A stretch of DNA of 64,000 nt from Salinispora mooreana. GTDB lineage: Bacteria > Actinomycetota > Actinomycetes > Mycobacteriales > Micromonosporaceae. The notes beneath the pieces are model-generated. The model searched no databases. It was not told the DNA's origin and saw only the letters and a program-made list of their open reading frames with translations. Shown here piece by piece: positions 3,595-21,686 of this stretch (positions are counted from its first letter, which is position 1; every line of letters starts with the position of its first letter). The translations under genes were made by a program, and so were the position numbers. The DNA lies in the NCBI RefSeq assembly GCF_000379065.1, contig NZ_KB900614.1:3288484-3352483 (forward strand). The letters run 5' to 3'.

Positions 3595-4347
3595 CTACTC
3601 CACAGCGGCAAAGGACGCTGGGGCGAAGTCATGAGTCGCCGAGCGCACCAAATTCTCGACCCATTCGCTGAGGCTCAGCCCACAAGAACTCGCCAGCCGG
3701 ACGCACAGGTCCAACTGTTCGGGCGCGAGACGCACCTGGATGGCCGTGGGCTTGGCAGACCCCTCGCAACGCTCCGAGCTCGATGTCTGCCAATCGTCAG
3801 TGCCGCGCTCGGCGAGGCTGTGCCGCACCTCTCGGCGGAGTCGATTCCGTGACCACTGCTCCTCCTCAGCCCTGCGCAGCCAATATGCCCGCTCCGGCTC
3901 GCTCAGCCGCGCCACCTCGGCGTGGTGCGCGATACTCAGACTCGCGACCCGCCGCTCGTGCGGAAACTTCCGCGCAATCCACGCGTAGTTCCGCAAAGTC
4001 TGATAGTCGAGGCCGGTCCGCTTGATCGCTTCCCGGTATCGACCGCTGAATGCAGTTTCGCCGAAGATCAGCCAGTCAGCCAGCCACCACGCGGATGAGT
4101 TCGAGGCCATCTGCAACTGCATCCCGATGTCTTCCCAGACGTGCTGGGCGAGACCGCTCGGGAAGAGAATTCCCGCCTTGGTAACCGTCACCGGACCGGA
4201 GAACCGCATCACGACCGCTGATGAGGAGGCCCTGATGCCTACCGCCTTACCAGCCTCATGACAACCCTGGCCAATCGACCCGTGTGCATTCTCGGCCGGC
4301 TTTAATCGGCCATCCGTCATCACCATGCACTCGTCACCTTCCCCCAT
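3595..4347 (-). CDS. lmbU: LmbU-family antibiotic-cluster transcriptional activator
   Basis: The 250-residue protein resembles LmbU of the lincomycin cluster and related activators such as NovE and HmtD, which bind promoters of biosynthetic genes. Conserved features in the middle are SSAWWLADWLIFGE, DYQTLRNYAWIARKFP, and HHAEVARL followed by W-S-RN-LRREVR. The C-terminal ~60 residues (VRLAPEQLDLCVRLA, LSLSEWVENLV) look like a ribbon-helix-helix-like segment. ATG 4347 has GGAG 8 bases upstream; ATGs at 4326 and 4320 are alternatives. Leu15 is a TTA codon, downstream of all three starts, so translation should depend on the rare bldA-type leucyl tRNA. It probably controls the neighbouring NRPS cluster (inference from position). 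Gene symbol is by family resemblance only. Confidence 0.85.
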   Translation of the reverse strand: MGEGDECMVMTDGRLKPAENAHGSIGQGCHEAGKAVGIRASSSAVVMRFSGPVTVTKAGILFPSGLAQHVWEDIGMQLQMASNSSAWWLADWLIFGETAFSGRYREAIKRTGLDYQTLRNYAWIARKFPHERRVASLSIAHHAEVARLSEPERAYWLRRAEEEQWSRNRLRREVRHSLAERGTDDWQTSSSERCEGSAKPTAIQVRLAPEQLDLCVRLASSCGLSLSEWVENLVRSATHDFAPASFAAVE

Positions 4348-5674: not shown

Positions 5675-5712
5675 TAAGGCCCTGACTGAAATTCTTGCTG
5701 GTCAGGGCCTTA
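5675..5712 (-). terminator. Hairpin terminator downstream of tRNA-Ala
   Basis: A perfect 12-base inverted repeat (TAAGGCCCTGAC at 5675-5686 and its complement at 5701-5712) with a 14-base loop, 6 bases past the tRNA 3' end. On the minus strand it is followed by a T-richer stretch, which fits termination of the tRNA transcript. Confidence 0.75.
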
Positions 5713-5718
5713 TCGGTG

Positions 5719-5792
5719 TGGAGCTGAGGGGATTTGAACCCCTGACCCCCTCGATGCGAACGAGGTGCGCTACCGGTCTGCGCCACAGCCCC
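5719..5792 (-). tRNA. tRNA-Ala (anticodon CGC)
   Basis: The reverse strand folds as a full tRNA. The acceptor stem GGGGCTG pairs with CAGCTCC (one G-U). The D arm is GCGCAGACCGGTAGCGC. The anticodon stem CCTCG/CGAGG encloses the loop TTCGCAT, giving anticodon CGC (reads GCG, Ala). The T arm CAGGGGTTCAAATCCCCT is intact. The discriminator is A and CCA is not encoded. Its 3' side faces the accessory region at 1-5.7 kb, the usual side for island integration. Confidence 0.95.
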
Positions 5793-5964
5793 TCCGCCGG
5801 CGTGCCGGCGTGGGTCCCACTCGGCATTCACCGAGCGGGCCGGCGATAAGGCTAACAGGTCCCTGACCGCCCTGCGAATCGCCCCCGACCCGGCGAAGGG
5901 GTTGCGACGCGACCCGAGTGGGTGGGTGGGTGCCCGGTTCCGGCTGGGCGGGCAATTTCCGAGT

Positions 5965-6777
5965 TCAGGCCGGCTGAGCACCACGGCCGGCCTGGTACGG
6001 GCGCCCGCGGAGGCCGCCGGCACGCCGGTAGGAGACGGTCCCGCCGTTCGCCGCCGCCGGCAGGTCCGCCGGCCGGTCCAGACCCATCGCGGTACGGCGC
6101 ACCGACTCCCGCTGGGCCGCCAGGCGGCGCTGTGCTTCACGCCGCACCGCGGCCCGGCGCGCCTGCTCGCGCCGCACCTCGGCTTGGCGGGCGGCCAGCC
6201 AGGCCGCCTCGCGGGCGGCGGCCCGGCGGCGGCGCTGGTCAGCGAGGGCGCGAGAGCGCAGGTGGGCGACGTAGGCCAGGAGCAGGGTGCCGGTGACCGC
6301 GAAGCCGATCCAGAATCCGGGGCTGACGACGAGCACTCCGACCAACTCGACGGAGTTGAGTAGGAGCAGCGCGGCGAGCACCCGCCGCCGCCGGTAGATG
6401 GCTGGGGCGTGCTGGCGGCGGCGCGGCAGGGGCCGGCGGGGGCCGGCAGCCGGGCGCCCGCCGAGCCGACGTTGCCGGTGGGGCTTCGCTGACACCGCGC
6501 GCAGCTGGTCCGACCGGCGGAACCCTGATGCCTGGTCGACGACGGCGGCACCGGAGTCCACACTTTCACTTAAAGTAACCGACAGCGAACGTGGTGGATT
6601 TATTGGCCGGCGACCTGGGACAGTGCGGCGTCGTCGACGGCGCTGGAGCACCCGCGCCGTCGACTTCGCCCGCTCCGCCGCCAGCCGCTCGGTCGCGTCG
6701 TACCGGCGGACCAGGGCCGGCGCCAGGGCGAGCAGGCCGGCGGCGGCGAGGACGGCGAGGAGCACCGAGGTCGGCAC
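5965..6777 (-). CDS. sepX: SepX/GlpR-type divisome membrane protein
   Basis: A 270-residue membrane protein. An N-terminal TM (PTSVLLAVLAAAGLLALAPA) is followed by a basic linker, two adjacent TMs near residues 130-180 (VLAALLLLNSVELVGVLVV, WIGFAVTGTLLLAYVAHL) and a long Arg/Ala-rich coiled segment. This plan, beside galU, a MoeA-like gene and an acetyltransferase, matches the SepX protein of Streptomyces and the GlpR receptor of corynebacteria, which bring the gephyrin-like Glp to the division site. I start at GTG 6777, where GGGAGG lies 7 bases upstream; ATG 6795 is an alternative. It ends the minus-strand gene row. Function by homology and position. Confidence 0.75.
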   Translation of the reverse strand: MPTSVLLAVLAAAGLLALAPALVRRYDATERLAAERAKSTARVLQRRRRRRTVPGRRPINPPRSLSVTLSESVDSGAAVVDQASGFRRSDQLRAVSAKPHRQRRLGGRPAAGPRRPLPRRRQHAPAIYRRRRVLAALLLLNSVELVGVLVVSPGFWIGFAVTGTLLLAYVAHLRSRALADQRRRRAAAREAAWLAARQAEVRREQARRAAVRREAQRRLAAQRESVRRTAMGLDRPADLPAAANGGTVSYRRAGGLRGRPYQAGRGAQPA

Positions 6778-6962
6778 CCTCACCCCTCCCGTCACCGAAT
6801 TTCAGGCAAGCACAGGCCAGCGCCGGACGATCTTTCATATTTCGGCCTGGAGCCGAAGATCCTACGGTTGGACTGCAAATGCCGTAGCTTGCAGTTACCT
6901 GAGGTTACGGGCGACGGCACCGGATGACGGCTCGCCGCGCCGATCGTCCCAGCCGGGACCGC

Positions 6963-7610
6963 TCAGCCAGTCGCTGCCCGCAGCCGGCACCAACGGGCCA
7001 GCAGGCCCCCCTCGGCCGCCACGTCCTCGCTGGTCAGGGCGTACCCGATGTGGTCACGCCAGGCGCCGTCGATGTGCATGTAGCGCACGTGGTACGCCTC
7101 CTCGCGAAAGCCCAGCTTCTCCATCACCCGGCGCGACGGCTGGTTCTCCGGGCGAATGCTGATCTCGATCCGGTGCAGCCCACCCGGCCCGAAGGCGTGG
7201 TCCACGGCGAGGGCAAGCGCGGTAGGGATGATGCCTCGCCCCGCCACCCGCGAATCCACCCAGTAGCCGACACAGCCCGAGCAGAACGCCTGGCGCACGA
7301 TGCTGCCGACATTCAGATGCCCGACCAGACGGTCCCGTCCTCCCTCGCGGAGACAGACCACAAACGGCATGCTCTCGCCGATCCGGGCCGCGCGGCGCTG
7401 CTCCCGATACACCCAGCGAAAGGCATCGAGTGAGTTCAGGTCCGCCCAGGCACCCGGGAGAGACGCCTCCCAGGGGGCGAGCCACGCCTCGTTGGCGCGG
7501 CGCACCTCAGACCAGGCCACCGCGTCCGAACGTCGGTAGGGCCGCAACGACACCGGACCATCGGCCAACACGGCGGGCCATCCCTGCGTGCGGCGTCCCA
7601 GAAGGCTCAC
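6963..7610 (-). CDS. GNAT N-acetyltransferase, RimJ/RimL type
   Basis: A 215-residue GNAT protein. Motifs in order are VSLRPYRRSD (start of fold), VGHLNVGSI, YWVDSRVAGRGIIPTAL (acetyl-CoA pyrophosphate loop, Q/RxxGxG/A type), HRIEISIRPENQPSRRVMEKLGFR and the terminal Y-R-hydrophobic strand. RimJ/RimL enzymes acetylate N-terminal amines of ribosomal proteins, but many relatives act on other proteins or small amines, so the substrate is open. It lies between the MoeA-like gene and sepX, a conserved place in actinomycetes. GTG start at 7610. Confidence 0.85.
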   Translation of the reverse strand: MSLLGRRTQGWPAVLADGPVSLRPYRRSDAVAWSEVRRANEAWLAPWEASLPGAWADLNSLDAFRWVYREQRRAARIGESMPFVVCLREGGRDRLVGHLNVGSIVRQAFCSGCVGYWVDSRVAGRGIIPTALALAVDHAFGPGGLHRIEISIRPENQPSRRVMEKLGFREEAYHVRYMHIDGAWRDHIGYALTSEDVAAEGGLLARWCRLRAATG

Positions 7611-7653
7611 CCGGCTGATCCTCCGCCCGCAGCGCCGGCCGGGGCAAGCATCC

Positions 7654-8967
7654 TCACCGACGTCGGTCCAGCAGCAACACGTCCACGGTGGAACCCGCTG
7701 CGGCGGTGGTCACCCGCTCACCGAGCACCAACAACCCGTTCGCCTCGGCCAGCCCGGACAGGGCAAGGGGCCCGCCACGCAGCGGCTGGACGGTGTAGCC
7801 GCCGCCGCGCCGTTCCGCGACCTGCGCCGGCCGAAACTCACGCAACCCCGCCGGCGAGGAGATCGTCTCCAGCAGATGTCCCCGAACGCCAGGGCGAAAG
7901 ACCGGCTCCGCCCCAGCCAGCATATTGATCACCGGCCGCGCCAGTACCTCGAAACCGATCAGTGCCGCCCCCGGATCACCAGGCAGGCAGACCACCGGTA
8001 CCTCCTCCGGGCCGACCGTGCCGAACCCGAGCGCGGTGCCGGGGTAGAGCGCCACCTCGGTGAAGGCCACCGGTCCGGTCCGGTTCCCCTCCCGACGGGA
8101 GAGAATCCGCCGGACCATGTCGCCCGGCCCGGTGCCGGTGCCCCCGGTAGTGATGATCAGATCGGCCCGCAGGGTCTGGTCCTCCAGCAGGCCACGCAAC
8201 CCCTCCGGGTCGTCGTCGCAGATGCCCACCCGGAACGCGAGAGCACCGGCCTCGGCCGCCGCCGCGGTCAGGGCGTGCGAGTTCACGTCCACCACCTGGC
8301 CGGGTTGGCTGCCCCGCCCCACCTCGACAAGTTCGTCACCGGTCGCCACGACCACCACGCGTGGGCTGGGCCGGACCACCACATGGCCGATTCCGGTTGC
8401 GGCGAGCACGGCGACCAGTGCCGGCGAGACGTAGGTACCGGCCCGGGCTAGCAACGTGCCGGCCGCGATCTCCTCACCGGCCTTGCGGACGCTGTACCCC
8501 CGCTTCGGTACTCGGTGGATCTCCACCGAGGCCATGCCCTGGTCGGTCCACTCGACCGGAACCACCACGTCCGCGCCAATCGGCAGCGGCGCCCCGGCGG
8601 CCACCGAGAAACAGGCCCCCGGGGTGAGTCGGACCGGACGCCAACTAGCGGCGCCCAGATCACCGACGACGTTGAGCTGCACGACCCGCCCGCCCGGCGA
8701 GCCGGCCTGGGCCGACGGGTAGCCGACGCCCCGGCCACCGGCGGCAATGTCCTCCCAGCACGCCGCATACCCGTCCACGGCTGCCTGGTCGAAGGCCGGG
8801 ACGGAGTGCGTCGCGACGACATCCTCAGCGAGGACGTTTCCGTACGCCTGGGTGAGGTCGAGGTCGAGTGGCGGCAGCGCACGCAACCTGCGCAGCACAC
8901 TGCCCAGGTAGTCGGCGAGCGGCGTCAACTCGTTCACGGCCGCCTCGGCGTCGGCCGTCGCGGTCAT
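7654..8967 (-). CDS. moeA: Gephyrin-like molybdotransferase (MoeA/Glp)
   Basis: A 437-residue MoeA-family protein. N-terminal MoeA domains (LADYLGSVLRRLRAL, ATHSVPAFDQAAVDGYAA) are followed by the nucleotide-binding fold with VVATGDELVEVG, DVNSHALTAAA and TTGGTGTGPGDMV, then the C-terminal domain (LPGDPGAALIGFEVLARP). MoeA inserts molybdate into adenylylated molybdopterin. In corynebacteria the paralogue Glp instead binds FtsZ and the membrane receptor GlpR, and the gene order here fits Glp. ATG 8967 overlaps the galU stop as ATGA, so translation is coupled. Enzyme or division role cannot be settled from sequence alone. Confidence 0.9.
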   Translation of the reverse strand: MTATADAEAAVNELTPLADYLGSVLRRLRALPPLDLDLTQAYGNVLAEDVVATHSVPAFDQAAVDGYAACWEDIAAGGRGVGYPSAQAGSPGGRVVQLNVVGDLGAASWRPVRLTPGACFSVAAGAPLPIGADVVVPVEWTDQGMASVEIHRVPKRGYSVRKAGEEIAAGTLLARAGTYVSPALVAVLAATGIGHVVVRPSPRVVVVATGDELVEVGRGSQPGQVVDVNSHALTAAAAEAGALAFRVGICDDDPEGLRGLLEDQTLRADLIITTGGTGTGPGDMVRRILSRREGNRTGPVAFTEVALYPGTALGFGTVGPEEVPVVCLPGDPGAALIGFEVLARPVINMLAGAEPVFRPGVRGHLLETISSPAGLREFRPAQVAERRGGGYTVQPLRGGPLALSGLAEANGLLVLGERVTTAAAGSTVDVLLLDRRR

Positions 8968-9920
8968 GTACCCGGACCACCCGAGGAGCCCGCGTTGACA
9001 AAGTCGGCGAGCCACTTTCGGAACTCGGCGCCAAGGTCATCGCGTTCCGCGGCGATCTGCACGACGGTCTGGAGATAGCCCAACGGCATGCCCGTGTCGT
9101 ACCGGGTTCCCCGGTAGACGATGGCGTGCACCGGCACCCCCTCCGTGCGCAGGATCTCCATCGCATCGGTCAGTTGGATCTCGCCGCCACTGCCCGGATC
9201 GGTCCGGCCGATCGCGTCGAAGATGCGGCCAGGAAGGACGTAACGGCCCAACACGGCGAGATTGCTGGGAGCCTCCTCCGGCTTCGGCTTCTCCACCAGG
9301 CCGGTCACCCGTACCACGTCGCCGATGTCGGCGAGTTCCGCCTCGGCTGAAGCCACCGAGGCGATGCCGTAACGGGTGGTCTGGTCGGGTTCGACCTCGA
9401 AGAAGGCCAGCACGACGCCGCCCGTACGGGCCTGCAGCTCCAACATGGCCGGCAGCAGCGGCTCAGCCGGCTTCAGGAACTCGTCCCCGAGCAGCACCGC
9501 GAAGGGCTGGTCCCCGATGTGGGACTCGGCGTAGCCGACGGCGTGGCCGAGCCCGAGCTGATCCGGCTGCCGGCAGGTGTAGATGGCGGCCAGGTCCTCG
9601 GTCCGCTTGACCGCGGCCAACAGCTCCGGCTTCTTCGCGAGCCGCTCTTCCAAGTCGGGACGGCGGTCGAAATGATCAACTATGGCGGTCTTGCCGCGCC
9701 CGGTGATCAGCAGGACGTCGGTGATCCCGGCCTGGGCGGCCTCCTCGACGATGTATTGCAACACGGGCCGGTCAACCACGGGGAACAGTTCCTTGGGCAC
9801 CGCTTTGGTGGCGGGCATGAAGCGGGTGGCGAGCCCGGCGGCCGGAATGACCGCCTTGACCGCGCGGGGACCGCCGGTTGCGGTGGCCGTCGATGGAGGA
9901 TCTGCTGAGTGCTCCGACAT
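8964..9920 (-). CDS. galU: UTP--glucose-1-phosphate uridylyltransferase
   Basis: A 318-residue GalU. It has the nucleotidyltransferase signature AAGLATRFMPATKAVPKELF at residues ~27-46, then ITDVLLITGRGK, GLGHAVGYAE, LLGDEF (metal-binding Asp), VEKPKPEEAPSNLAVLGRYV and the TDAMEIL region. It makes UDP-glucose from UTP and glucose-1-phosphate for cell-wall glycans, trehalose and exopolysaccharide. It starts 9 bases after the stop of the GGDEF gene and overlaps the next gene by 4 bases, so these genes are very likely cotranscribed. Confidence 0.95.
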   Translation of the reverse strand: MSEHSADPPSTATATGGPRAVKAVIPAAGLATRFMPATKAVPKELFPVVDRPVLQYIVEEAAQAGITDVLLITGRGKTAIVDHFDRRPDLEERLAKKPELLAAVKRTEDLAAIYTCRQPDQLGLGHAVGYAESHIGDQPFAVLLGDEFLKPAEPLLPAMLELQARTGGVVLAFFEVEPDQTTRYGIASVASAEAELADIGDVVRVTGLVEKPKPEEAPSNLAVLGRYVLPGRIFDAIGRTDPGSGGEIQLTDAMEILRTEGVPVHAIVYRGTRYDTGMPLGYLQTVVQIAAERDDLGAEFRKWLADFVNAGSSGGPGT

Positions 9921-9929
9921 GCCGCGAGA

Positions 9930-12146
9930 CTATCGGCCACGGCTCTGCCGTGGCGGGTGAGGACCGGAAGTCGCACCGCGGGGAGTGACCGCCCCCGACC
10001 CCGGCGCCACCTCGGTCTCCGACCCGTTCCCACCAGCGGCACCGGGCTGGGCCGACGGCTCGCGCCGCGCGCTGGCTCGAAGCGGCCCCTCGTCCGAGCT
10101 CACCGGCGGCACGGGCGCGGGCGCCTTCGCCGCCCCGGCGACCCGGCAGGTGTCTCGGCCGCTGGCTTTCGCCGCGTACAGGGCTTGGTCAGCAGCATTG
10201 AGTACCTCCTGTCCGGTGCGGCCGTGGTCGGGGTGGACCGCGACGCCAATGGAGACGGTCACCGGCACCAGGACCGGGGCAGCCAACCCGCCGACGGCGA
10301 TCGGGGTGTCCCGTACCACCGCACCGAGCCGCTCCGCGACGATGGCCGCACCCGTGGCGTCGGTCTCCGGTAGCAGCACCACAAACTCCTCTCCCCCCAA
10401 CCGAAAGGCGAGGTCGACCTCACGGATCTCGCCGCGGATCCGCCGGGCGAACTCGACCAGCACCCGGTCCCCGGCGGCGTGCCCGTGGGTGTCGTTGACG
10501 TGTTTGAAGCGGTCCAGATCGAGGGCGAGGACGCTGAGCATTCGGCCGAACCGGATGGCTCGTTCCACCTCACGGCGAAGCGACTGGCGCAGGTAGCGGT
10601 AGTTCCAGAGGCCGGTGAGCGGATCGGTCAGCGACAGCCGCTGGGTCTCCTCGTGCACCCGGACGTTGTCCACCGCCACCGCGGCGTGCCCGGCGAAGGT
10701 ACGGAGCGTGACCAGGCCATCGTCGTCGAACTCCTCCCCGCCGAGCCGGTCGTAGAGGGCGAGCACGCCGAACGTTGCCGGCGCCGCACCATCAGGCGGG
10801 CCACCCGGGCGGGGAGACGGACTGTCAGCCCGCGAGGCGCCGCCGTCCCGCGGGGCCGCGAAGGGCACCGCGATATACGTCCGGCAGGGGGGCTCCCCCG
10901 ACAGCGCCGCGGCCGGCTCCACCCGGCCGCGGCGCGCCTCTCCGCTGACCGCTACCGCCCCCACCAGGTCGGCCAGCGGCACCCGGAGCGGCCCCGGCTC
11001 ACCGGCCGGCGCCTCGAGCCCTTCGGTGGCCTGCGCGACCAGCGACCCGTCCGGATCGACGAGGAGTACCGCCCCCGCTCGGGCGCCAGTCGCCGCGATT
11101 GCGCTGTGCAGGATGACCCGCAGGATGCCCTGCAGGTCATGGGTGCTGGCCAAGGTGTCCCCCAGCACCTCCAGGTGTCCGCGCAGCTGGTCCCGGCTGC
11201 TGGTCAGGGCGGCAACGTAGGTGCCGGTCTCCCGGGTCATCCGGTTGAATGCCCCAGCCAGCCGCCCGATCTCGTCCCGGCCGCGCACCGGCACCCGCGT
11301 GGTCAGGTCACCCCGGGCCACCCGGTCCACCGCCCCCGCCAGTTCGGCCAAGGGCCGGCTGGTGGCCCGGGCCAGGCGTCCGGCGACGACGACCGCCAAC
11401 AGCACGGCCAGCAAGACGGCGGCGACCAGAGCGGCGTACAGGCTGGGGGGTCGGTCACTCGGAACGGAGAGCACCAGCGACAGCGGCTGCCGGTCGGACG
11501 GGTCAACCCGCCGCAGATACCGACCGTCGTCGGTGCCCACCACCTGCTCACCGTCCAGTCCACCGACAGCCCCGAGTACCGCCTCGCGTACTCCCGCCGA
11601 CTCGGTGGTGTGCCGGAGCCGGCTGGCCGGGTCCGGGCCGTCGAGCAGGGTGACCGCCGCCCCGGTGAGCACCGCCAGCCGCGCCACGAACGCGGGGTCG
11701 ATCGGCTGCGCGGCGGTGACCGCCCCCTGTGCGGCCCCGCTGGCATCCCGGAGGTCCACCCGGGCGGCCAACGCGCCGGGCGGGACGTCGGCCGGGGTAC
11801 GGGCCGCGCAGTCCCGCCAGGACGCGGCGGGCAGTGGCGTGGTGGCGTGGAGCACCTGGCCGCCAACGTCGGTAACCCGCACGGCGGCGGCGAGACCCCG
11901 ATCGACCACCCGCCCCGCGGCGGCCGCCCGATCGGCGGCGAGGGCCACCACCTCCGCGGCGGCCCGCAGCTGCTGGCAGAGCGCGTCAACCGCGGTTCGG
12001 ACGGTGGTCGCGGCAACCGCGAGCCGGTCGGCGGACTGACTTCGATCGATGCTGGTCACAGCGAACCCCACGAAGTACGCCCCGACCAGCACCGGGCCGG
12101 CCACCACCGTGAGGAAGGCTGCGGTTAAGCGTGCCCGTAGTGTCAC
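9930..12146 (-). CDS. Membrane HAMP-GAF-GGDEF diguanylate cyclase
   Basis: About 738 residues. TM1 (LTAAFLTVVAGPVLVGAYF) leads to a ~200-residue sensor region outside the membrane. TM2 (LVAAVLLAVLLAVVVAG) is followed by a HAMP domain (RPLAELAGAVDRVARGDL), a GAF-like domain of ~150 residues and a C-terminal GGDEF domain with DLDRFKHVNDTHGHAAGD and the active-site loop GGEEF near residue 580. REVD five residues before GGEEF is an inhibitory I-site. It should therefore make c-di-GMP with product inhibition. I start at GTG 12146 (GGGGGGA 4 bases upstream); ATG 12200 would add a basic leader. It heads the galU-glp-sepX row. Confidence 0.9.
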   Translation of the reverse strand: MTLRARLTAAFLTVVAGPVLVGAYFVGFAVTSIDRSQSADRLAVAATTVRTAVDALCQQLRAAAEVVALAADRAAAAGRVVDRGLAAAVRVTDVGGQVLHATTPLPAASWRDCAARTPADVPPGALAARVDLRDASGAAQGAVTAAQPIDPAFVARLAVLTGAAVTLLDGPDPASRLRHTTESAGVREAVLGAVGGLDGEQVVGTDDGRYLRRVDPSDRQPLSLVLSVPSDRPPSLYAALVAAVLLAVLLAVVVAGRLARATSRPLAELAGAVDRVARGDLTTRVPVRGRDEIGRLAGAFNRMTRETGTYVAALTSSRDQLRGHLEVLGDTLASTHDLQGILRVILHSAIAATGARAGAVLLVDPDGSLVAQATEGLEAPAGEPGPLRVPLADLVGAVAVSGEARRGRVEPAAALSGEPPCRTYIAVPFAAPRDGGASRADSPSPRPGGPPDGAAPATFGVLALYDRLGGEEFDDDGLVTLRTFAGHAAVAVDNVRVHEETQRLSLTDPLTGLWNYRYLRQSLRREVERAIRFGRMLSVLALDLDRFKHVNDTHGHAAGDRVLVEFARRIRGEIREVDLAFRLGGEEFVVLLPETDATGAAIVAERLGAVVRDTPIAVGGLAAPVLVPVTVSIGVAVHPDHGRTGQEVLNAADQALYAAKASGRDTCRVAGAAKAPAPVPPVSSDEGPLRASARREPSAQPGAAGGNGSETEVAPGSGAVTPRGATSGPHPPRQSRGR

Positions 12147-12231
12147 TCGATCCCCCCGGGACTTCGCCGGCCGATGCCTGCGATGCTGACACAGAGTCAC
12201 TCCCGGATGAGCCCTGCGTCAGGAGTGTTGC

Positions 12232-12861
12232 GTGCCAGATTTTTCTGATCGAGCGCAAGTGACCCGCGAGGCGAAGTTCGCGACGCGGACCAGATTGCTC
12301 GCCCGCCGTCGACGACTCGGCGACGCCGAACGGGCCACCGCCGCCCGACAGGTTCAGGCCGGCCTGGTCGCCCTGGTCCGCCGACTGCGCCCGCGCCGGA
12401 TGACGGCGTACCTGCCAATCGCCACCGAACCGGGCGGCGCGGACCTGCCGACGGTGCTGCACGCCGCGCTGCCGGAGGGGGCCGAACTGCTGCTGCCGGT
12501 GCTCCGGGCCGACCTCGACCTGGACTGGGCGCCGTGGACCGGGCCCGACGATCTGGCAGCCGCCGGCCGGGGGATGCGGGAGCCGACCGCGCCCCCGCTC
12601 GGCCGGGCCGCGTTCGCAACGGCCGACCTGGTGGTGCTGCCGGCGCTGGCGGTGGACCGGCGGGGGGTGCGCCTGGGGCGGGGTGGCGGCTCGTATGACC
12701 GGGCACTCGCCCGGGTCCCGGCGACCACCCTGACCGTGGTGCCGCTGCACGAGGGTGAGCTGGTCAACGCGCTGCCGGCGGAGCCACACGACCGTCCGGT
12801 CCACGCTGTGGTCACCCCGGCCGACGGCCTGCGTACGCTGGACGCTGCCGCACCGCGCTGA
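12232..12861 (+). CDS. 5-formyltetrahydrofolate cyclo-ligase
   Basis: A 209-residue MTHFS/YgfA family enzyme, converting 5-formyl-THF to 5,10-methenyl-THF with ATP. N-terminal KFATRTRLLARRRRL supplies the basic ATP/folate-binding segment. TAYLPIATEPGGADLPTVL follows, and VDRRGVRLGRGGGSYDRAL is the family signature that binds phosphate and Mg. GTG start with AGGAG 6 bases upstream. It is divergent from the GGDEF gene and 115 bases before the FmdB gene, a common pairing in actinomycetes. Confidence 0.93.
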   Translation: MPDFSDRAQVTREAKFATRTRLLARRRRLGDAERATAARQVQAGLVALVRRLRPRRMTAYLPIATEPGGADLPTVLHAALPEGAELLLPVLRADLDLDWAPWTGPDDLAAAGRGMREPTAPPLGRAAFATADLVVLPALAVDRRGVRLGRGGGSYDRALARVPATTLTVVPLHEGELVNALPAEPHDRPVHAVVTPADGLRTLDAAAPR

Positions 12862-21131: not shown

Positions 21132-21686
21132 CCTGATCCCCCTTCGACGGGCGGTGATGAGTTCGGCACAGCATGCCCTACCGATGGTTAAGGCGAACCG
21201 GGGGACAACGCTGGTCGGGAAAAGTCACACCAGCGCCACCCGAGGCCGGACGCAATGAGCGGCGGGGCCCTCCCCGGCACCCGCCGCCCACGCTCTGATG
21301 CGACAGATTCTGCCGCACCACGACACAGTCCAACAGAGACGGGGATCACAGTTTTCTTTTTGTTACATTACTCAGCGTAACTCACATCCCTCCTGCAAGT
21401 GACCACGGTAAATCCGATAGCTCCATGTCAAGGCTCAAGTTACCGACCCGTAGGCGCAGTGTCACCAAGGTCGGTTGAGAGCGCTCCCACTACCCCTGGT
21501 AACGCAAATGCGACATGCACTTGCGTATTGCAGCACCCACCCGTAACCCATGAACATCGATGAGCTCAACCCCCTCCGTAACCGAACCAGCGACGGCGGC
21601 GTTTCGGCCATCGGGGCCCGGGAATTCCACGCGGCACGCCCTGGTTCGACCAGAGGTAGTTGTTCCACGCGATCGGAGAGATTGAG
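21132..21686. other. Long AT-richer regulatory region between maoC and trxA
   Basis: 555 bases with a marked drop in GC at ~21345-21385, including a GTTAC...GTAAC inverted repeat at about 21364-21383, a LacI-type palindrome at 21476-21489 and an ACGCAA...TTGCGT pair near 21503-21527. No frame on either strand matches a family. It probably carries promoters for both flanking genes, and perhaps those of a lost gene. Confidence 0.5.
21476..21489. promoter_or_regulatory. CebR-like LacI-family operator
   Basis: TGAGAGCGCTCCCA matches the Streptomyces CebR operator TGGGAGCGCTCCCA at 13 of 14 positions. CebR represses cellulose/cello-oligosaccharide genes. None of those genes is in the immediate neighbourhood (nearest is trxA, ~200 bases away), so the site's target is unclear. 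Confidence 0.5.

Follow-up and report, generated by a model that had tools for sequence, protein, structure and literature searches.

A predicted transmembrane receptor diguanylate cyclase at the glp-sepX division locus of Salinispora mooreana and other actinobacteria

One locus of Salinispora mooreana raises, in a particular form, the question of how actinobacteria time and place their septa: what does a gene for a membrane receptor, predicted to make cyclic di-GMP (c-di-GMP), do at the head of a row that holds the homologues of two division genes, glp and sepX? The locus lies in a stretch of 64,000 nucleotides (contig NZ_KB900614.1, positions 3,288,484 to 3,352,483), here called the window and numbered from its first base. 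The genome, of the family Micromonosporaceae, comprises 5.2 Mb in 3 contigs. An earlier note made from the bare sequence had suggested that the cyclase connects c-di-GMP to septation and to UDP-glucose supply. The linkage is deeper than that reader could know, the same gene order recurring in many actinobacterial families. The explanation that we favour, while granting it somewhat less than an even chance, is that the transmembrane receptor diguanylate cyclase (dCache-HAMP-GAF-GGDEF) has long belonged, as a dedicated component, to the glp-sepX division locus, serving the Glp/SepX module.

The receptor gene and its row

All five open reading frames lie on the minus strand, between positions 5965 and 12146 (12200 if the alternative start of the first gene is used), and a sixth gene diverges from them.

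9930..12146 (alternative start 12200), minus strand: receptor diguanylate cyclase gene, first in the row, from Pfam and motifs
8964..9920, minus strand: galU-like gene, UTP-glucose-1-phosphate uridylyltransferase, from Pfam and NCBIfam
7654..8967, minus strand: glp-like gene, gephyrin/MoeA-type divisome scaffold homologue, from NCBIfam and alignment
6963..7610, minus strand: GNAT acetyltransferase gene, RimJ-like, from Pfam and NCBIfam
5965..6777 (alternative start 6795), minus strand: sepX/glpR, membrane divisome protein, from NCBIfam
12232..12861, plus strand: 5-formyltetrahydrofolate cyclo-ligase (FCL) gene, divergent neighbour of the receptor gene

The coordinates and family profiles confirm what the earlier note had said of the row, its gene identities and its tight junctions. 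The galU gene begins 9 nucleotides (nt) after the receptor gene, galU and glp overlap in an ATGA (8967-8964), and glp and the acetyltransferase gene are 43 nt apart. Only the distance given before sepX needs a proviso, since the 185 nt hold for a start at the GTG at 6777, and a start at the GTG at 6795 leaves 167 nt.

The receptor runs from a transmembrane helix through an outer domain and a second helix to the HAMP, GAF and GGDEF domains, the helices being read from the model and the sequence.

11445..12071, minus strand: predicted extracytoplasmic dCache-like sensor, residues ~26-234 (range aligned to solved folds), with the cysteine pair C57/C113
11235..11378, minus strand: HAMP domain, Pfam 66.3 bits (cut-off 25)
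10671..11138, minus strand: GAF domain, Pfam 27.5 bits (cut-off 22.4)
10152..10631, minus strand: GGDEF domain, PF00990, 150.6 bits (cut-off 23.8)
10424-10413, minus strand: inhibitory I-site motif REVD (RxxD)
10397-10383, minus strand: active-site motif GGEEF

Both GGEEF and the metal-binding DLDxFK are retained, as expected of a diguanylate cyclase, and the receptor probably makes c-di-GMP. Together with REVD and the predicted membrane architecture, GGEEF upholds the earlier view that a membrane GGDEF protein with an I-site heads the row. An AlphaFold model of residues 1-289 reached a mean predicted local distance difference test (pLDDT) score of 85.6. The modelled outer domain matched LuxQ 3c30 (Z 11.7, root-mean-square deviation 3.5, 175 residues aligned), with KinD, PscC, DctB and Tlp3 following within about one Z unit, and it is predicted to be of the dCache type, a tandem of PAS-like folds between two transmembrane helices. 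No Pfam Cache family was among the receptor's sequence matches at E<=0.001. Of 89 aligned relatives, 70 have one and 71 the other of the two cysteines of this domain, and most of the remainder show a gap there. For the GAF domain, Foldseek placed those of DosS and DosT high; a heme-binding reading was not adopted, the model of 690 residues being weak (mean pLDDT 75.3, predicted template modelling score 0.40).

For the other members of the row, the family assignments differ in firmness. GalU scores best against TIGR01099, at 288.6 bits under a curated cut-off of 326.8, and is thus called galU-like. For Glp, the best of all families is Glp_gephyrin NF045515 (407.3 bits, cut-off 475), ahead of MoeA_actino at 288.2, and we call it Glp-like. 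SepX exceeds the curated cut-off of its family, NF050101 (SepX_GlpR_4), with 191.9 bits against 110, and is encoded near glp; a SepX/GlpR role in division is predicted for the window's protein.

In Corynebacterium glutamicum, Glp binds FtsZ and GlpR (PMC10522489; PMC11733289); it is a repurposed MoeA (PMC10522489) whose enzyme activity has probably been lost (PMC11733289). When the window's Glp was aligned to 8bve, the stretch of the FtsZ-binding loop (Met361 to Tyr369 of C. glutamicum Glp), placed by eye, was found to keep its 9-residue length and its Tyr, with Met replaced by Val. The genome carries a second, divergent MoeA-like gene (G000:C1:4026666-4027811, L249), in whose product the corresponding stretch is shorter and lacks the Tyr; the open reading frame ahead of it looks Mog/MoaB-like by eye. 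Two contextual traits of Glp are present, since the genome encodes another MoeA-like protein and sepX/glpR lies close to glp. Reading glp itself as a MoeA enzyme gene is disfavoured by that other gene and by the family ranking.

A separate observation concerns the space after glp. The glp profile weakly matches (~18-72 bits) small open reading frames between glp and rimJ in many loci, for example L180 8094-8669 in the orientation of glp. They are perhaps Mog/MoaB-like, and none lies at the corresponding place in the window.

Reach of the linkage and natural variants

Among named loci, 35 of 80 were used for comparison, the remaining 45 being titled outside Actinobacteria or only 'Bacterium'. 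The FCL gene stands divergent from receptor-galU-glp in all 24 loci L001-L024 (22 titled Micromonosporaceae, two metagenome-assembled genomes titled only Actinobacteria/Actinomycetota). Both rimJ and sepX are present in 23 of these; the contig of L004 ends within glp. No receptor was at the locus in the 11 loci L025-L035, which come from Kocuria, Geodermatophilaceae, Nitriliruptorales and one Actinomycetales metagenome-assembled genome. Ten loci, nine of Micromonospora and one of Verrucosispora, encode GalU proteins 84-89% identical to that of the window.

We searched sampled genomes with 515 residues of the receptor, comprising the sensor, HAMP, GAF and the first GGDEF residues (E<=1e-20 or 1e-25; some matches span HAMP-GAF only). 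The family sample gave matches in 37 of 41 genomes, the order sample in 29 of 101 and the class sample in 26 of 118. These fractions stand for prevalence, and the three samples, which overlap, together yield 86 distinct positive genomes. At these thresholds each genome has one receptor place, split matches apart. By hand count, the receptor and glp share contig and strand, at most ~2.5 kb apart, in 79 of the 86 positive genomes. Seven were not counted as linked: G035 has the receptor beside galU with a glp fragment only, G045 and G209 gave no glp match, G062, G207 and G229 have the receptor on one contig and glp, or part of galU, on another, and G146 is taken up below.

A set of 140 loci was chosen, the window's genome included; it takes in all family matches and the majority of receptor-positive genomes, to which each family adds between one and a few further genomes. 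Left out among the positives were G045, G075 and G209, as well as eight genomes from the genus of the window. For G035 and G207, in which no glp was found, the region was centred on the receptor instead. With sampled genomes grouped at the family level (labels f1-f52), a receptor was present at the glp locus in 17 of the 46 families examined; the two sampled genomes of f33 have none there. The receptor or its sensor part is encoded beside galU/glp in 78 of the 140 loci, a number that includes one short GGDEF protein with no sensor (G143, f22) and that reflects a choice favouring positives rather than prevalence; some loci were cut by contig ends, and 11 were scored neither way. A galU start is possible 9-10 nt after the receptor stop in 26 of 35 scored family members (hand count, the window's copy excluded; two further members were not scorable).

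Receptor presence changes at least 14 times on a tree of Glp with 137 rows, of which 75 were scored as receptor-positive and 51 as negative (126 in all), a count obtained over many weak forks with no shuffled control. Because the gene is always in the same place, we read this as an ancient presence that would have been lost many times, with repeated gain as the alternative.

Natural variants bear on which neighbour the receptor belongs to. No galU relative was found at E<=1e-20 in G181 and G164 (f43; L183 and L198; 100 and 98% complete). The receptor stop of G181 overlaps the glp start as GTGA, and in G164 the receptor directly precedes glp, for which a start ~60 nt further on is possible. A third genome of the group, G212, has a short galU-like stretch only between the two genes. 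Since the receptor stays before glp where galU was not found, these loci suggest that it is tied to glp and not to UDP-glucose.

Other lineages have altered the output domain. In G052, G065 and G084 (f13) and G063 (f11) the sensor, HAMP and GAF are kept and the whole GGDEF domain is gone, the shortened genes ending 9 to ~60 nt before galU. The sensor-HAMP-GAF proteins at the receptor's place in L149, L150, L151 and L162 show no recognised output domain. Degenerate active sites occur as SESDF in G093 (f13) and as GGEAF in G044 and G072 (f5), and the gene of G072 (L172) is broken into several reading frames. Among 96 distinct GGDEF domains, one of which (in L206) lies ~4.5 kb from galU, RxxD is present in all 96, and 92 have GG[DE]E with F, L, V or I as the next residue. 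The cyclase is usually intact, yet the sensor can outlast it. As four sampled genomes lack GGDEF, the purpose of the protein may, in some lineages, be something other than c-di-GMP.

Elements before the receptor gene and sepX

Three elements upstream of genes of the row drew attention.

12179..12187, minus strand: conserved block AGCATCGCA, upstream of the receptor gene, extended -10-like by eye
12187..12199, no strand given: BldD-box-like palindrome TGACTCTGTGTCA, exact match
6894..6908, minus strand: direct repeat GTAACCTCAGGTAAC, upstream of sepX, MtrA/GlnR-type-like

Of 70 receptor leaders, some of them redundant, 43 carry the AGCATCGCA block; the control, 5148 windows tiled along one strand of these loci with the leaders left in, has it in 22. 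Abutting or overlapping this promoter-like block is TGACTCTGTGTCA, an exact BldD-box-like palindrome. Its chance of occurring in a stretch of 116 bases is ~2.5e-4 under a first-order model. Among the leaders scored, the exact palindrome is confined to this genome, and nine others carry, at that spot, a version with one mismatch. Matches with one mismatch at the start codon of other loci are explained by coding sequence. Across the window, box-like sites are not enriched at <=1 mismatch (5 observed, 6.1 expected). A BldD-regulated promoter before the receptor gene is therefore named as a lead only. A second exact BldD-box-like palindrome, TTACTCAGCGTAA, lies at 21368-21380.

The repeat before sepX resembles a motif of the MtrA/GlnR type. 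Of 155 loci, 18 have it between rimJ and sepX in the form GTAACn5GTAAC; 9 of these are among the 37 in the sample of the window's family and 9 among 29 named ones, and the 1.62 Mb that the loci span contain no further copy. A relaxed form, GTNACn5GTNAC, was found at this place in 22 of the 155 loci versus 14 places elsewhere. The MtrA and GlnR consensuses resemble each other in the available text of one paper (PMC9045223), and the MtrA consensus was not found in that of another (PMC5845573). Because a conserved repeat precedes it, sepX probably has its own promoter in the Micromonospora group, and the idea of a single five-gene operon is weakened accordingly. A sigma-70 scan of positions 5700-12400 found no promoter.

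Directly downstream of sepX lies a tRNA-Ala (CGC) gene (5718-5792, minus strand), and beyond it a gene for an LmbU-family regulator (3595-4347).

What the receptor may serve

Known systems share parts of this arrangement. As in C. glutamicum, glp lies close to glpR/sepX within a conserved gene neighbourhood (PMC10522489); in the alignment placed by eye, the window's Glp has a stretch as long as the FtsZ-binding loop there, with its closing Tyr and without its Met. In contrast, the main text of that study, figures aside, names no cyclase, receptor or galU in the context. SepX of Streptomyces is likewise a membrane division protein, and the window's protein matches the NCBIfam SepX/GlpR models, whereas the main text on SepX contains neither c-di-GMP, galU, moeA nor any form of synteny (PMC8748795). 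The CdgA-CdgF proteins of S. venezuelae are GGDEF cyclases too, CdgE being GAF-GGDEF, but none is listed as sensor-HAMP-GAF-GGDEF, and HAMP is absent from the available text (PMC6205966). RgsP of Sinorhizobium meliloti is a membrane sensor with c-di-GMP domains that is septal and polar, and its growth role, independent of c-di-GMP, sets a precedent for such a sensor; unlike the window's receptor, it has a 7TMR-DISM sensor and an EAL domain and belongs to a different phylum (PMC6107284). The earlier note knew of no description of a link from c-di-GMP to septation and UDP-glucose supply, and we found none for the receptor and glp-sepX in the open literature searched, subscription papers, supplements, figures and most preprints lying outside it.

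The explanation we favour builds on features read directly from the DNA: the domain architecture, the intact catalytic and inhibitory motifs, the position before galU-glp in many families and the tight junctions. The ligand, the signalling and the effect on septa we infer. The dCache domain would bind an extracytoplasmic small molecule or a wall-related ligand, HAMP and GAF would relay the signal inward, and GGDEF would produce c-di-GMP as a self-limited signal in the cells that hold Glp and SepX, possibly at the very site of these two proteins. This signal would tune septum formation; in lineages without GGDEF the sensor would act by contact alone. An unlikely though not far-fetched version puts the divisome receptor first: dCache-HAMP-GAF would read an outside signal and act directly on the Glp/SepX scaffold, the cyclase being an optional output, inactivated or dropped in several lineages.

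Several points weigh against a dedicated division role. Conserved adjacency is by itself no proof of joint function, and there is no sequence sign that the receptor touches Glp, SepX or FtsZ. The Glp score falls below the curated Glp cut-off, and the conserved element that sepX carries in the Micromonospora group counts against a simple operon. In G146 the receptor and galU-glp are on separate contigs and the 1.3 kb before galU hold no receptor, the one likely true separation. FCL is present and the receptor absent at 51 of the 140 loci, in 30 families; thus division does not need the receptor there. The GGEAF and SESDF sites and the loss of the domain (f5, f13, f11) show that some lineages can do without cyclase activity. 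Finally, the divergent FCL gene, with no obvious link to the row, is kept about as well as the receptor, being found in 124 of the 140 loci.

FCL is the fair control for the main rival explanation, in which the receptor is an old neighbour of a housekeeping locus and has stayed there because rearrangement is slow and the promoter region is shared, having no functional tie to Glp or SepX. We regard this as a real if lesser possibility. Besides the comparable retention of FCL, it gains from the patchy presence of the receptor on the weakly forked Glp tree and from protein distances, since those of receptor and Glp correlate at r=0.82 over 3915 pairs and all gene pairs at the locus fall within 0.77-0.90. 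A mere bystander sits less easily with the tight receptor-galU junction, often of 9-10 nt, with receptors standing directly before glp where galU is gone, and with the persistence of the sensor at the same spot after loss of the cyclase. Alternatively, the cyclase might feed a cell-wide c-di-GMP pool read by regulators such as BldD, its position in the row serving co-expression during septation or sporulation. The genome has 15 further GGDEF places, c-di-GMP governs Streptomyces development through BldD (PMC6205966), and an exact BldD-box-like palindrome stands ahead of the receptor gene. We nonetheless judge a global input rather improbable, as the exact box is confined to one genome and overlaps a promoter-like block, the one-mismatch start-codon matches elsewhere follow from coding sequence, and the window is not enriched.

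Glucosyltransferases of the OpgH and UgtP types depend on UDP-glucose. Elsewhere, OpgH (PMC3723540) and UgtP (PMC5889556) tie nutrition to division, and galU is the receptor's nearest junction. On this ground the cyclase and GalU could together drive a c-di-GMP-activated polysaccharide synthase that uses UDP-glucose. That this should be the purpose of the row is highly improbable in our estimate: no PilZ domain was found in the window's genome at E<=0.001, and two f43 genomes keep the receptor with glp where no galU relative was found. The same two results weaken the exopolysaccharide reading as a whole and, with it, the UDP-glucose arm of the earlier note.

In conclusion, a receptor encoded before the gene for an FtsZ-binding scaffold and with that scaffold's membrane partner is a direct candidate for the means by which outside conditions reach the Z-ring. 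We know of no environmental receptor of the actinobacterial Z-ring scaffold so far; should the receptor act directly on the divisome, it would be the first, as far as is known. Loci with an intact cyclase, a degenerate one or only the sensor, and those where the receptor has no galU beside it, form a natural series that allows a test of which receptor part serves division. In these actinobacteria, an outside signal may thus be wired to cell division.

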